NCBI GenBank assembly: GCA_030447545.1
Contig: JAUJOV010000002.1
Coordinates: 1 to 64,000, forward strand
From: Sphingomicrobium sp.
GTDB lineage: Bacteria > Pseudomonadota > Alphaproteobacteria > Sphingomonadales > Sphingomonadaceae
Direction of reading: 5' to 3'
DNA: 64,000 nt
Positions 34,912-39,371 of the stretch are shown here, piece after piece. The notes beneath the pieces are model-generated. The model was given only the letters and a program-made list of their open reading frames with translations. It did no database searches and was not told the origin of the DNA. Both the position numbers and the translations under genes were made by a program. How positions within the stretch are numbered: the stretch's first letter is position 1; each line of letters begins with the position of its first letter.

Positions 34912-35445
34912 ATGGCCAGGCAGAAGAGATCCGACGATTGGGGTTTCCCGCGCTGGCGCGCCTACGGCAGCGGCCGCGGCGCGGCCCGGGTGCGGCTGTG
35001 CGACCGCGACGGCTGCGACAGGCCAGGCGACCGGCCTGCGCCCAAGGCTCCGAACAGTCGCGAGCGCTGGTATTTCTGCGAAGCCCATGCGGCCGAGTAC
35101 AACAAGAACTGGAACTACTTCGCCGGTCTCGACCCCGAAGAAGCCGCCAGGCGCGCGGCCGACGAGGAGCAGGGCGCCTCGGGCTTCCGCCGTTCGGCGC
35201 ACTGGCAATGGGGCGGCCCCGGCGACGGATCCCGGAGCCGCGACGAGATGCGTGCGCTCGACGCGCTCGAGCTCGACAGCGACGCCGAGTTCAAGGACGT
35301 CAAGGCCGCCTACCGCCGCCTCGCCAAGGAGAACCACCCGGACGTGAAGCCCGGCGACGAGGAGGCCGCCGGCCGCTTCCAGAAGGTGCAGGCAGCCTAC
35401 GACGTGCTTCGCAAGTCCGAAGAGCGGAAGAACGGCAAGGCCTGA
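34912..35445 (+). CDS. DnaJ-domain (J-domain) protein
   Basis: 177 aa. The C-terminal third is a J-domain: ALDALELDSDAEFKDVKAAY, RRLAKENHPDVKPGDEEAAG with the HPD tripeptide, and RFQKVQAAYDVLRKS. The N-terminal region has cysteines and a His arranged as C-x4-C...FCEAHAAEYN (LCDRDGCDRPGDRPAPKAPN, RWYFCEAHAAEYNKNWNYF), a possible metal site. Arrangement resembles J-proteins conserved in alphaproteobacteria near bolA/sufE-type genes. Would act as an Hsp70 co-chaperone; client unknown. Confidence 0.88.
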   Translation: MARQKRSDDWGFPRWRAYGSGRGAARVRLCDRDGCDRPGDRPAPKAPNSRERWYFCEAHAAEYNKNWNYFAGLDPEEAARRAADEEQGASGFRRSAHWQWGGPGDGSRSRDEMRALDALELDSDAEFKDVKAAYRRLAKENHPDVKPGDEEAAGRFQKVQAAYDVLRKSEERKNGKA

Positions 35446-35449
35446 CGGT

Positions 35450-35866
35450 TCAGGCGGCGAGGCGCTCCGCGGTCTGCCTGACGAGCGCGATCATGTTTGG
35501 AACGCCCTGAGTGCGGTTGGCGCTCAAATGCTTTTGCAGCTCGAACGGAGCTAGAGCGGCTGCGACGTCCATGCCCGCGACCTTGTCCGGGGCTTTGTCC
35601 TGCACCGCCGAAAGCACCAGCGCGACGATGCCCTTCGTGATCGCGGCATTGCTGTCCGCAAGGAAATGCAGCCGCCGGTCGTCGCTCGTGGTCGGATAGA
35701 CCCACACCGAGGCCGAGCAGCCGGGCACCTTCGTCGCGTCCGTCTTCAATGCCTCGGGCATCGGCTCGAGCTTTCGCCCCAGGTCGATCAGCAGCCGATA
35801 GCGATCCTCGCGGTCGAGCAGCTGGTACTCGTCGAGCACATCTTCGATGGGCGGAAGGCCGGTCAC
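35450..35866 (-). CDS. sufE: SufE-family sulfur acceptor
   Basis: 138 aa from the GTG at 35866. SufE fold: EYQLLDREDRYRLLIDLGRK, then DATKVPGCSASVWVYPTTSD, in which the Cys of VPGCSASVW is the persulfide carrier, and GIVALVLSAVQDKAPDKV. Accepts sulfur from a cysteine desulfurase such as SufS for Fe-S cluster assembly. It is the last gene downstream of the Psp genes on the minus strand (35 bp gap), and may be cotranscribed with them. The start is uncertain. Confidence 0.88.
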   Translation of the reverse strand: MTGLPPIEDVLDEYQLLDREDRYRLLIDLGRKLEPMPEALKTDATKVPGCSASVWVYPTTSDDRRLHFLADSNAAITKGIVALVLSAVQDKAPDKVAGMDVAAALAPFELQKHLSANRTQGVPNMIALVRQTAERLAA

Positions 35867-35900
35867 GGGCGCGAGATAGTGCTCCTGTGCCCGACTGTCA

Positions 35901-36179
35901 TCAGAGGTGTCGCAGCGCTTCGATCTCGTGGCGGAGCAGCGGATTGCCGTCGGTAGCGATACGCTCCAGCACATGGACGCGTTGCCGCAACTCATCAATT
36001 TCCGGGCTGCGCTGCGGCTGCTGCGGGCCGACCGGGTGAGGAGCGAGCGCCGCGGTGGCTCCCGCCTCGAGCACCGCGACTTTCTTCTTCAGCTTCCGGT
36101 TCACGTACACCAGCCGCACCACGCACAGCGTGAGTGCAATAGTGATCAACAGCATCATGAAGAATTCGTCTTCTGACAT
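35901..36179 (-). CDS. Small membrane protein with PspB-like coiled coil (Psp locus gene 6)
   Basis: 92 aa. One N-terminal transmembrane helix (MMLLITIALTLCVVRLVYVN), a Lys-rich stop-transfer (RKLKKKV), a Pro/Gln linker, then a C-terminal coiled coil ending DELRQRVHVLERIATDG and HEIEALRHL. The last segment is closely related to the tails of the next two upstream genes and of PspB/PspC. It is the last small gene of the Psp run. Function not known; a Psp membrane partner is the best guess. Confidence 0.72.
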   Translation of the reverse strand: MSEDEFFMMLLITIALTLCVVRLVYVNRKLKKKVAVLEAGATAALAPHPVGPQQPQRSPEIDELRQRVHVLERIATDGNPLLRHEIEALRHL

Positions 36180-36206
36180 CTGCGATTCCCCTTGTTCTGA
36201 CTTTCC

Positions 36207-36446
36207 CTAGCGGTCGCGGAGCTCCTCGATCTGCCTGCCGAGGCTGTTCTCCTTCTCGACCGTGATCCGTTCGAGAACCTTGAGACGTTCCTTGAGCTCG
36301 GAGACTTCTTCGCGAAGCCGCAGCGTCTCCGCTCCTGCCTCCGGGTTCGCTGGAGCCGAGTGGCGGGACTGGTATCTCGCCTTGAGCACCATCGCGATCA
36401 TCGCCAGCGCGACGATCGCCACGACCATGATCTGGCCACCGCTCAT
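36207..36446 (-). CDS. Small membrane protein with PspB-like coiled coil (Psp locus gene 5)
   Basis: 79 aa: transmembrane helix IMVVAIVALAMIAMVLKARY, short Pro/Ala linker, coiled coil REEVSELKERLKVLERITVE and RQIEELRDR. Overlaps the end of the previous gene by 4 bp (ATGA), so the two are coupled. Architecture equals PspB (TM plus coiled coil) although overall similarity to pspB is confined to the tail. Confidence 0.74.
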   Translation of the reverse strand: MSGGQIMVVAIVALAMIAMVLKARYQSRHSAPANPEAGAETLRLREEVSELKERLKVLERITVEKENSLGRQIEELRDR

Positions 36447-36727
36447 TGAACCTTGTCTCCGCTCTTCAGCCGCGGCTTGTCGCGCAGCGCCTCGATTTGC
36501 GCGGCGGTCTGCATGCCGCCGTCAGTGACAATCTTTTCAAGCACCCGGACGCGCGCTTCAAGCTCGGCGTTGCTGGCGGCGTACTGGGCCGCTTTTTCGG
36601 CAGCCAGACTGGCCTCTAGCTCCAACTTCCTTTCCTTGAGCCTCATCCAGCGGGTCATAATGGCAGTGAGAGCCATGATCGGAAGGCCGATGACGATCAG
36701 TGCTATGAAGACTTGGCCTGGTCCCAT
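36443..36727 (-). CDS. Small membrane protein with PspB-like coiled coil (Psp locus gene 4)
   Basis: 94 aa: transmembrane helix VFIALIVIGLPIMALTAIMT, basic segment RWMRLKERKLELEASLAAEK, coiled coil NAELEARVRVLEKIVTDGG and AQIEALRDKPRL. Lies 22 bp after pspC. The sequence GQVFIALIVIGLP resembles the PspB helix (IPILFIGLPW). Likely a PspB paralogue. Confidence 0.75.
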   Translation of the reverse strand: MGPGQVFIALIVIGLPIMALTAIMTRWMRLKERKLELEASLAAEKAAQYAASNAELEARVRVLEKIVTDGGMQTAAQIEALRDKPRLKSGDKVQ

Positions 36728-36748
36728 GTCGCATCCTCCGTTGGGCGC

Positions 36749-37138
36749 CTAGCGCAGCTGCTCGATCTCGCGCGCGAGCGAGCGGTTCTCGGTCGTCACA
36801 TAGCTCTCCACGTCGGCGAGCCGGCGGTCGATGTCCTTGAGCCGTAGCCGGATGTCGCGGGCAGTGCTGGCCGGCGAGGCGCGTACCGCGCGCCAGAACT
36901 CGCGCTCCTCCCTGTCGCTGCTCTCCAGCTCGCGCGGCTTCTTGGGCGCGACGACGCCGGCGATGAAATAGACGGGCAGGATGGATCCGCTGCTCAGGAC
37001 GATGGCCGCGACCATGCAGATCCGCACGAGGGTGACGTCGAACCCGGTGTAATCCGCGATGCCTGCGCAGATTCCCATGATCTTGCCGTTGCGCTTGTCG
37101 CGGTAGAAGCGCGTCCGGCTGGGGGGCTGGTAGGCCAT
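36749..37138 (-). CDS. pspC: Phage shock protein C
   Basis: 129 aa. PspC domain at residues about 8-70: RFYRDKRNGKIMGICAGIAD, YTGFDVTLVRICMVAAIVLS and LPVYFIAGVVAPKKP. A C-terminal cytosolic helix ends DIDRRLADVESYVTTENRSL AREIEQLR in two parts, the same tail signature as its small neighbours. In E. coli PspC with PspB senses membrane damage and releases PspF from PspA. Lies 3 bp from pspB. Confidence 0.93.
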   Translation of the reverse strand: MAYQPPSRTRFYRDKRNGKIMGICAGIADYTGFDVTLVRICMVAAIVLSSGSILPVYFIAGVVAPKKPRELESSDREEREFWRAVRASPASTARDIRLRLKDIDRRLADVESYVTTENRSLAREIEQLR

Positions 37139-37141
37139 GGC

Positions 37142-37444
37142 TTACTCTCCGCTCCTGATCCGGCTCGTGCTGCGGGCGCGGCTGCGGACGGCGCTCAGCT
37201 CTTCCTCGATCCGGGCAGTCTGGTCGGGGAGGCAGTGCTGCCGCCAGTTGGGGTTCTCGGCGGTCATGATCCGTTCGATCGTGCACAGCCGGTCGTCGAG
37301 CCGCCGTGCGAGGTCGTGCAGCTCGTCCAGCAGCTTTTCGTCGGTCATCGTGAGGGTCTTCGCCTGCTTCCACTTGGTCACGTAGTGAAAGATCAGCCAC
37401 GGCAGCCCGATGAACAGGATCGGTATGACAATAAGCTCTTCCAT
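37142..37444 (-). CDS. pspB: Phage shock protein B
   Basis: 100 aa. N-terminal helix VIPILFIGLPWLIFHYVTKW, the canonical PspB opening (lFvlf.gPiWLilHY), then KLLDELHDLARRLDDRLCTI and ERIMTAENPNWR coiled coil. Six bp from pspA. The last 25 residues are Arg/Ser-rich. Confidence 0.92.
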   Translation of the reverse strand: MEELIVIPILFIGLPWLIFHYVTKWKQAKTLTMTDEKLLDELHDLARRLDDRLCTIERIMTAENPNWRQHCLPDQTARIEEELSAVRSRARSTSRIRSGE

Positions 37445-37450
37445 CGCTTG

Positions 37451-38119
37451 TTATTCCCCCTTGCGCCTGAGCGCGGCCTTCATGGCCTCAAGTTCCGCGT
37501 CCACTTTCTCGGCGGATCTCAGCTCTGAGATTTCCTCCTCGAGGCTCTTTGGGCCTGTCATGCCCAGCGCGTCGGCGCGCCCTTCGGCGAAGTCGGCGCG
37601 CCGCTCGAGCAGCTCGAACTTGCTGAACGCGTCCTCGGTGCGGCCGCTGTTGAGGATCTCGCGCGCCTTGGCACGGGTCACGGCGCTTTCGAGCCGCGCC
37701 GCGATCGCATTCTGGCGGGCTCGCGCCTCGCGCAGCTTGGCCTGGAGCTTGGCGATGTCCCCCTCATAGCCCTTGAGCGTCTCGTCGATCAGGTCGATCT
37801 CGGCTTTCAGCCCGGCGGCCATGTCGGCCGCCTTCTGCCGCTCGACCAGCGCCGCCTTGGCGAGGTCCTCCCGGTCCTTCGACAGCGCAAGCTCGGCCTT
37901 TTCGGTCCAGCTTGCCTGAAGCTCCTCGAGCCGCTTCATCGCGCGGCGCATTTCCTTGCCGTCGGCGATCGACCGAGCCGCCTGCGCGCGGACCTCGACC
38001 AGCGTCTCCTCCATCTCGAGGATGATCATCCGGATCATCCGCGCCGGGTCCTCCGAGCGGTCGAGAAGCTCGGTCATGTTGGCCGCGAAAATGTCCCGCG
38101 TACGGGAAAAGATGCCCAT
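37451..38119 (-). CDS. pspA: Phage shock protein A
   Basis: 222 aa. PspA/IM30 family member, an ESCRT-III-like peripheral membrane protein that protects the inner membrane and inhibits PspF. Opens MGIFSRTRDIFAANMTELLD with RSEDPARMIRMIILEMEETL, followed by a long coiled coil rich in KAELALSKDREDLAKAALVE-type heptads. First gene of the minus-strand Psp run, preceded by a sigma-54-type promoter at 38166-38181. Confidence 0.96.
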   Translation of the reverse strand: MGIFSRTRDIFAANMTELLDRSEDPARMIRMIILEMEETLVEVRAQAARSIADGKEMRRAMKRLEELQASWTEKAELALSKDREDLAKAALVERQKAADMAAGLKAEIDLIDETLKGYEGDIAKLQAKLREARARQNAIAARLESAVTRAKAREILNSGRTEDAFSKFELLERRADFAEGRADALGMTGPKSLEEEISELRSAEKVDAELEAMKAALRRKGE

Positions 38120-38165
38120 CCTAAGTCACTCCGCAATCGTAACAGGCCGTCACGCAAATTCCTTA

Positions 38166-38181
38166 TACAAGAGCCGTGCCA
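38166..38181 (-). promoter_or_regulatory. Sigma-54 promoter of the psp genes
   Basis: Read on the minus strand: TGGCACG, 4 bp, TTGTA. The sigma-54 consensus is TGGCACG-N4-TTGCW, so only one base of the -12 box differs and the GG/G spacing is exact. It lies 47 bp upstream of the pspA ATG, and PspF, a sigma-54 activator, is encoded divergently next to it. Confidence 0.85.
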
Positions 38182-38183
38182 GT

Positions 38184-38238
38184 TTCCGGGAATGGCCGGA
38201 AAAAAGGAAATCCCGCCGTTTTCCGGGACTTCCGGCGG
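38184..38238. promoter_or_regulatory. Putative PspF upstream activating sites
   Basis: TTCCGG (38184-38189), 6 bp, CCGGAA (38196-38201) form an inverted repeat. TTCCGG occurs twice more at 38222-38226 region and 38230-38235, within a second palindrome CCGCCG...CGGCGG (38213-38238). The sites sit directly upstream of the sigma-54 promoter, between pspA and pspF, where enhancer sites for an activator are expected. Assignment to PspF is by position. Confidence 0.6.
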
Positions 38239-38284
38239 CGAAATAACTTGCCAACAGATGGGCCTTGCCACCAACTGTCGGCGC

Positions 38285-39329
38285 ATGGAGCGGGCCAGTC
38301 AATTCGTCGGGCAAAGCCTCGCCTTTCTCGACGCGGTCGAGCGGACAAGCCGCGCCGCGCCGCTCAACCGCCCGGTGCTTGTGATCGGCGAACGCGGCAC
38401 CGGCAAGGAGCTGATCGCCGAGCGGCTCCATCGTCTCTCGCCGCGATGGGCGGGACCGCTGGTGATCATGAACTGCGCGGCGCTGCCCGAAAGCCTGATC
38501 GAGGCCGAGCTGTTCGGCCATGAGGCAGGCAGCTTCACCGGGGCGACCAAGACCCGCCACGGGCGCTTCGAGGAAGCCGACGGCGGCACCCTGTTCCTCG
38601 ACGAGCTCGGCACCCTGTCGATGCCGGCGCAGGACCGGCTGCTTCGAGCGGTCGAATATGGCGAGGTGACCCGCATCGGCGCGTCCAAGCCGATCCACGT
38701 CGACGTGCGCATCGTCGCGGCGACCAACGAGAACCTCCCGGCGCTGGTCGACCAGGGCAAGTTCCGCGCCGACCTGCTCGACCGCTTGTCGTTCGAGGTC
38801 GTGACCCTTCCGCCGTTGCGCGCGGAGCGGCGACGTGCCCTTGCTCGCCGATTTCTTCGGGCGGCGAATGGCGGTCGAGCTCGACTGGCCCAGCTGGGCG
38901 GGCTTCTCGCCGCGCGCGCTCGCAGCGCTCGAGGCCTATCCCTGGCCCGGCAATGTGCGCGAATTGCGCAATGTTGTCGAACGTGCCGTCTACCGCTGGG
39001 AGGACGCCGAACGGCCGGTCGATGCGATCCAGTTCGACCCGTTTCATTCTCCCTGGGCTCCTGCGCCAGACGCGGCTTCGGGCGCGCAACCCTACGGCGA
39101 GCGGTCTTCACCAGCGGCCGCGGTGCCGACCGCCGAGCCGGCCGCTCCGCCGCAATCCGCCGCCGACTTCCGCGCGGCCGTCGCGGAATACGAACGGACG
39201 CTGCTTCAGAATGCGCTCGCCGCCAACCGCTACAACCAGCGCGCGACGGCCTCGGCACTCAACCTGAGCTACGACCAGCTGCGCCACGCGCTCAAACGCC
39301 ACAAGCTGATGGAGGCCGACGCCGCGTGA
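38285..39329 (+). pseudogene. pspF: PspF sigma-54-dependent activator, one frameshift
   Basis: AAA+ enhancer-binding protein. From the ATG at 38285: QFVGQSLAFLDAVERTSRAA, Walker A GERGTGKELIAERLH, the sigma-54 contact loop GSFTGATK (usual GAFTGA), Walker B GGTLFLDEL, then RIVAATNENLPALVDQGKFR. Near 38826 one base shifts the frame; it resumes DVPLLADFFGRRMAVELDWP, YPWPGNVRELRNVVERAVYR, and a C-terminal Fis-type helix-turn-helix NQRATASALNLSYDQLRHAL. No N-terminal receiver, as in PspF. Repaired length about 347 aa. Divergent from pspA. Confidence 0.9.
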
Positions 39330-39371
39330 CCGCGAATGGAAGGTGAATTGCGGCGCGAACGGGCGTATCCC

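Follow-up and report, generated by a model that had tools for sequence, protein, structure and literature searches.

A tandemly expanded family of small predicted inner-membrane proteins with a PspC-like tail in the Psp operons of Sphingomonadaceae

The way in which PspB and PspC detect membrane damage and relay it to PspA is still disputed, and a psp locus in a 64,000-nucleotide stretch of DNA from Sphingomicrobium sp. (contig JAUJOV010000002.1, positions 1 to 64,000, hereafter the window) raises a related question: what are the three small unnamed genes that stand behind its pspA, pspB and pspC? An earlier note on this DNA had proposed that the five proteins encoded downstream of pspA share one C-terminal coiled-coil pattern, perhaps a common docking element, and that a Psp system with five such subunits had not been described. 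Here, we find that the three extra genes belong to a family of small predicted inner-membrane proteins whose genes have multiplied in tandem within the Psp operons of Sphingomonadaceae (the family in the broad sense, inferred from named relatives), describe the tail that these proteins have in common, and weigh what they may do.

Three extra genes behind pspC

The operon lies on the minus strand and begins with pspA (37451-38119, 222 aa), whose product scores 258.4 bits against TIGR02977 (cut-off 242.95, 5e-77). It continues with pspB (37142-37444, 100 aa; PF06667 at 3.9e-24, TIGR02976 at 79.9 bits with a cut-off of 51.7) and pspC (36749-37138, 129 aa; TIGR02978 at 125.4 bits with a cut-off of 104, 1e-36). 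Behind pspC, on the same strand, stand extra gene 1 (36443-36727, 94 aa, type A), encoding an N-terminal transmembrane (TM) helix and a tail (tail DNA at about 36470-36583), extra gene 2 (36207-36446, 79 aa, type C; tail DNA at about 36210-36317), and extra gene 3 (35901-36179, 92 aa; tail DNA at about 35904-36005), a divergent member; the types A to E were assigned by hand-written patterns, with type A as the residual class. The reading frames of extra genes 1 and 2 overlap by 4 nt.

Each of the three falls under every curated Pfam and NCBIfam cut-off, their best scores being 17.9 bits for PF06667 (cut-off 25.6) and 21.7 bits for TIGR02976 (cut-off 51.7). Extra gene 2 reads as a sub-threshold PspB (TIGR02976, 1.9e-4), the TIGR02976 match of extra gene 3 (0.055) is confined to the tail part of the model, and none of the three matches the PspC domain PF04024 at E<=10. 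A tail profile matched extra genes 1, 2 and 3 at 3.5e-17, 6e-14 and 9.6e-15. When the window's own genome (70% complete) was scanned with it, the only matches below 1e-10 were these three genes and one open reading frame (ORF) on another contig; PspC came next at 8e-4 and everything else lay above 0.3. The additional ORF (L106:3948-4424, minus strand) has no TM helix visible by eye, and an ORF that overlaps it on the opposite strand reads like a possible methyltransferase.

A tail like that of PspC on a body like that of PspB

For comparison we used 80 psp loci chosen by pspA, hand-picked among the matches listed: 68 belong to the family (25 to the window's genus and 43 to further genera) and 12 to other families of its order, with one to three loci per genus outside the window's own. 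The window and 13 named loci (L003, L008-L019) bring the family set to 82; those 13 came from a similarity search with the 94 aa gene and so form a biased sample, and the headline count below uses the 68 pspA-picked loci. Four duplicates (L004-L007, of L027, L023, L040 and L024) were kept in the counts of the R-hxxhE motif and of the tail hidden Markov model (HMM), which explains why the former includes 94 PspBs, 98 PspCs and 98 PspAs and the signature counts 90 PspBs. Two stretches with neither pspA nor a tail match (L020, L021) were dropped.

Start codons were set by a rule that gives preference to short overlaps and to a TM helix, and this favours two of the following counts: an N-terminal TM-like stretch is present in 362 of 365 extra genes, with a second such stretch in none, and of 280 adjacent extra-gene pairs 146 have reading frames that share 1 or 4 nt and 273 are no more than 60 nt apart. 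Lysine and arginine are more numerous after the TM helix than before it in 360 of the 362, with 2 ties and 0 reversals. Because this bias puts the C-terminal side inside (N-out/C-in), the tails should lie in the cytoplasm, the compartment of PspA and PspF. AlphaFold2 predicted the 94 aa protein as a single helix (residues 3-82, mean predicted local distance difference test score, pLDDT, of 90) that bears the tail, and placed the PspC tail on a terminal helix (89-128) with lower confidence (whole-model mean pLDDT 76); as single-chain models, these are uninformative on partners. The topology signal and the helix model uphold the proposal that the unnamed genes encode a membrane helix followed by a coiled-coil tail, and the two models agree with a likeness of fold between the 94 aa protein and PspC.

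The tail has the consensus LxxxxxxLExRxxVLERIxTDxGxxLAxEIEALR. A regular-expression form of it matched 346 of the 383 candidate ORFs that follow pspC in related loci, where shuffled tails would give 0.98; with this excess, the confirmed coordinates and three Psp proteins that pass their curated models, genes and tails stand where they had been reported. Compared by hhalign, tail types A-D matched the C-terminal domain of PspC with 93.5-96.5% probability and PspB with 80.2-90.3%, and the controls reached 8.7% for slices of the PspA coiled coil and at most 45.6% for reversed decoys. Shuffled tails, decoys and PspA controls together rule out chance or a generic coiled coil. The alignment of whole genes drew on 55 of the 57 selected, leaving aside a short pair that lacks a TM helix. 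In a scan of 55 members at E<=0.1, an NCBIfam PspC model matched 31, a PspB model 22 and the best non-Psp family 6; in Pfam PspB led with 14, followed by weak matches to bZIP_2 (10) and ZapB (8).

Within the tail, 363 of the 365 extra genes carry the R-hxxhE motif, against 16.5 for shuffled sequences; its R falls at heptad position g, its hydrophobic residues at a and d, and its E at e. Positions -6, -3, +15 and +22 from the R, which were left free in the aligning expression, are hydrophobic in 72-100% and fit a or d. R-hxxhE is a published trimerization motif that specifies parallel three-stranded coils, according to PMC3653964. It also occurs in 89 of 94 PspBs, 81 of 98 PspCs and 79 of 98 PspAs; since PspA has it so often, the motif by itself is not diagnostic, and the R-hxxhE pattern did not hold as a specific signature. 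The second half of the tail, IExLR, is found in 286 of 365 extra genes vs 1 of 90 PspBs. The PspCs of this order have EIExLR together with R-hxxhE, and that of the window bears the tail RLADVESYVTTENRSLAREIEQLR on its C-terminal helix; in the window's PspB, R-hxxhE is present as RLCTIE and the IExLR half is absent. One tail pattern in all five proteins thus stands for the extra proteins and PspC, while PspB shares only the R-hxxhE half.

These features set the extra proteins beside, and apart from, the known Psp proteins. Like PspB (PF06667, TIGR02976), they are small, have an N-terminal N-out/C-in TM helix and a cytoplasmic R-hxxhE coiled coil, and are encoded in the same operon. Unlike PspB, they never carry the HY..xWK signature after the TM helix (0 of 365 vs 88 of 90 PspBs, the signature being derived from the PspBs compared here) or the PxWR end (0 of 365 vs 59 of 90). 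Their tail, with R-hxxhE and EIExLR, resembles that of the PspC C-terminal domain (TIGR02978), whereas in the window's extra genes PF04024 is missing and the tail is attached to a separate TM helix. Because IExLR is present and HY..xWK absent, the predicted proteins are PspB in shape and PspC in tail. They are relatives of PspB and not PspB proper, which the missing HY..xWK and the scores under cut-off rule out. Escherichia coli PspD, likewise the product of a small gene immediately behind pspC, differs in having no tail; the tail HMM finds nothing in it at E 1000, which rules out PspD analogues.

Sequence comparison indicates that the extra genes are under purifying selection. The ratio of non-synonymous to synonymous differences per site (pn/ps) is below 1 in 162 of 162 close pairs, which are mutually non-independent, with a median of 0.31. 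Against five relatives each, non-synonymous (dN) and synonymous (dS) divergence are 0.19-0.30 and 1.0-1.4 for extra gene 1 and 0.28-0.49 and 1.1-1.4 for extra gene 2; extra gene 3 has no close relative among the fetched loci (best other match 5.5e-9).

Distribution in the family and the surroundings of the operon

All 68 family loci chosen by pspA carry extra tail genes behind pspC, from 1 to 8 with a median of 4. Over the 82 family loci the number runs from 1 to 9, for 362 genes in total, so that five subunits is not a special number. Named examples include Sphingomonas cremea, S. alba, S. edaphi, Novosphingobium fluoreni and Croceibacterium salegens, the last with nine extra genes. Nine of the 12 loci from other families of the order have no extra gene and three, all of one family (f8), have one, which brings the tail to 365 genes across 94 loci. 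In these three (L094, L100, L101) the lone tail gene is separated from pspC by an ORF of 78-84 aa with a weak PspC match (7e-10 to 1e-8). Types recur across genera, and type E, where present in loci outside the window's genus, is the last gene of the array in 50 of 50.

The locus tail HMM placed 419 of 420 matches, among 6368 ORFs, downstream of pspA, a count made on the loci from which that HMM was built. The NCBIfam and own-genome scans above are independent of this circularity, as are two wider searches. In eight complete family genomes, 31 of 31 profile matches at E<1e-6 lay inside the psp operon, the outcome of a preset test of enrichment beside pspA. In a survey of the family with a 38-position profile, 139 of 149 genomes and 81 of 89 genera had the tail; the alignment behind it holds 49 of 72 non-redundant tails, excluding type E and most tails with long insertions, and the survey therefore misses some. 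Of the ten blank genomes seven have no pspA; the three that do comprise one with a tail gene missed by the profile, one with a type E gene alone and one with a bare pspABC. PspA itself is present in 289 of 297 genomes of the order. None of the eight pspA-less family genomes found (the seven from the survey and G249) has a tail match, nor does any of the eight pspA-less genomes of the order (G249 included) at E<=0.01. The tail thus co-occurs with psp within the window's family, a co-occurrence that the earlier note had set as a check, and as a common element it recurs, tracks pspA and stands nearest to the C-terminal domain of PspC.

The strongest of these links to pspA comes from the window's genus, where 22 of 25 genomes have a second psp locus (L111-L113, L115, L119-L136). 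In all 22 the order is pspA2-pspC2-tail gene, without any PspB match, and the tail gene is of type E, with 76-79 aa in those whose start is unambiguous, a type found in 0 of 25 main arrays of the genus. The longest pspA2 ORFs have 257-294 aa vs 222 for pspA. Two genomes of the genus also encode longer proteins (L116:2208-3110, L117:2495-3265) with weak PspA similarity (TIGR02977 at 1e-30 and 1e-24) and hydrophobic N-termini.

Upstream of the window's pspA lies a sigma-54-like site, TGGCACGGCTCTTGTA (38166-38181, minus strand), 62 nt from the pspA start and with one mismatch to TGGCACGN4TTGCW. Sites with up to two mismatches number 9 in the window, close to the expected 10.1, so its location upstream of pspA carries the weight. 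At up to one mismatch such a site precedes pspA in 19 of 94 loci and occurs in 2 of 94 control windows, which leaves the site unsupported as a family-wide feature. A crude scan of 35300-38400 for sigma-70 promoters found none, with 0.3 expected. Divergent from pspA, pspF (38286-39329, plus strand) consists of two PspF-matching fragments with a frame break near 38830, covered by ORFs at 38192-39346 and 38835-39329. Because the window is alone among the 94 loci in having a split pspF, a sequencing or assembly error in the 70%-complete draft is likelier than a true loss. After the array and in the same direction comes sufE (start about 35866, stop 35450, minus strand; PF02657 at 4.6e-35); in many family loci among those listed, an ORF of about 135-139 aa occupies this place.

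Possible roles of the extra proteins

What the array does has to be read from these patterns, and we put about an even chance on the extra proteins being inner-membrane anchors that oligomerize with PspC and PspB and dock PspA. In such a mechanism the N-out/C-in membrane helix would continue into a cytoplasmic coiled-coil helix ending in the PspC-like tail, and the R-hxxhE core would join the tails to each other and to PspC and PspB, probably as parallel trimers. The assembled tails would supply added PspA-binding sites at the membrane, PspA would be pulled off PspF and kept at the damaged membrane, and the paralog types, which differ in their membrane and juxtamembrane segments, may respond through these to different envelope insults. 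Work in other bacteria describes the parts of such a relay: in Yersinia, the cytoplasmic C-terminus of on-state PspC is reported to bind PspA and free PspF (PMC5596341), and in E. coli a PspC leucine zipper (residues 77-98) is reported to be required for interaction with PspA (PMC3068692), although the two papers differ on the placement of the PspC C-terminus and on its contact with PspA. A bolder version, which we regard as doubtful, is a combinatorial sensor in which PspC, PspB and up to nine paralogs would swap partners through the R-hxxhE tail and the composition of the assembly would encode the insult.

Several observations weigh against the anchor model. By the account in PMC3068692, neither zipper is required for PspB-PspC contact in E. 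coli, and the PspC zipper (77-98) overlaps only partially with the part matched by the tail (89-106), a match that at 4.9 bits is below significance; the match of the tail HMM to E. coli PspB is weak (0.0055). A direct hhalign comparison of the PspB tail profile with that of PspC gave 2.0% probability, that is, no match. Type E scores about 1-1.5% against both, and only its matches to type A (92.6%) and type C (91.2%) tie it to the family. One family genome (G678) has pspABC with no tail gene beside them in the fetched stretch, and the window's own genome has its fourth tail ORF on another contig. Finally, single tail genes lie away from psp in the examined genomes of two other families of the order (f5 and f8), and a survey of 199 genomes of the phylum found two adjacent copies in each of two genomes of one same-class family and one or two separate copies in six genomes outside the class.

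These stand-alone relatives rule out a strictly Psp-only tail, and they speak for a separate job, for example as scaffolds for lipid or respiratory enzymes, with the Psp promoter used for stress timing alone. Only 2 of 6 tail-profile matches in four f5 and f8 genomes lie inside the psp operon, a survey of the class found the tail in one genome outside the family among 192, and the small TM-plus-tail genes of the eight genomes from the phylum survey (L137-L148) stand apart from psp. All eight have pspA elsewhere in the genome, which would count against a separate job if pspA were uncommon among their neighbours. The apparent dependence of the tail on pspA, which holds within the window's family and fails for the stand-alone relatives elsewhere, tells against it as well, since tail genes are lost together with pspA; so do the tail gene of its own at every pspA2-pspC2 locus and the closest likeness of the tail, which is to PspC. 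We consider a separate job quite unlikely.

The extra proteins could instead be dampers that pair with the PspC tail, keep PspC from PspA and set the threshold for induction, a role that we also think unlikely, if less so. The match between the tails and PspC would suit dampers, as would the presence of a type E gene at a second locus devoid of pspB; in Yersinia, PspB-PspC cytoplasmic contact silences the response, according to the title of a 2016 paper cited in PMC5596341. Dampers are harder to reconcile with tails that lie closer to PspC, the PspA binder, than to PspB. Very improbable, by comparison, are convergent coiled coils or decaying duplicates with no common function: heptads are common to short coiled coils and the weak bZIP_2 and ZapB matches hint at such convergence, but reversed decoys and PspA coiled coils score far lower, every close pair has a pn/ps below 1, and the types recur across genera.

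The bare fact of additional PspB-like genes in the operon is already published, since Ravi et al. 2024 (PMC11237479) mention "PspB duplicates" within a pspFABC operon, with AOL22920.1 as an example, in one clause. For such genes the accessible text of that paper gives neither numbers nor types, and it mentions no tail, no second locus and no distribution over a family. In literature that covered few subscription journals, and in part only, we met no description of how large and widespread the array is, of its separate types and PspC-type tail, of its disappearance along with pspA, or of the pspB-less locus. The suggestion of an undescribed Psp system therefore fails for the extra PspB-like genes as such and, as far as that literature reaches, stands for the array.

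The bacteria that host this array carry sphingolipids in place of lipopolysaccharide on their surface, according to PMC11165598. In their Psp operon a PspC-like tail, presumably the part that docks PspA, appears to have been copied onto one to nine additional membrane anchors, with several types kept apart, and a gene family whose window members fall under all curated cut-offs is thereby described. The array isolates the tail as a module in hundreds of natural variants, along with a three-gene version, pspA2-pspC2-tail gene. If the combinatorial sensor were true, every heteromer would offer PspA docking sites and differ in its membrane and juxtamembrane sensor, and the second locus would be the minimal system, consisting of PspA, PspC and one tail protein.

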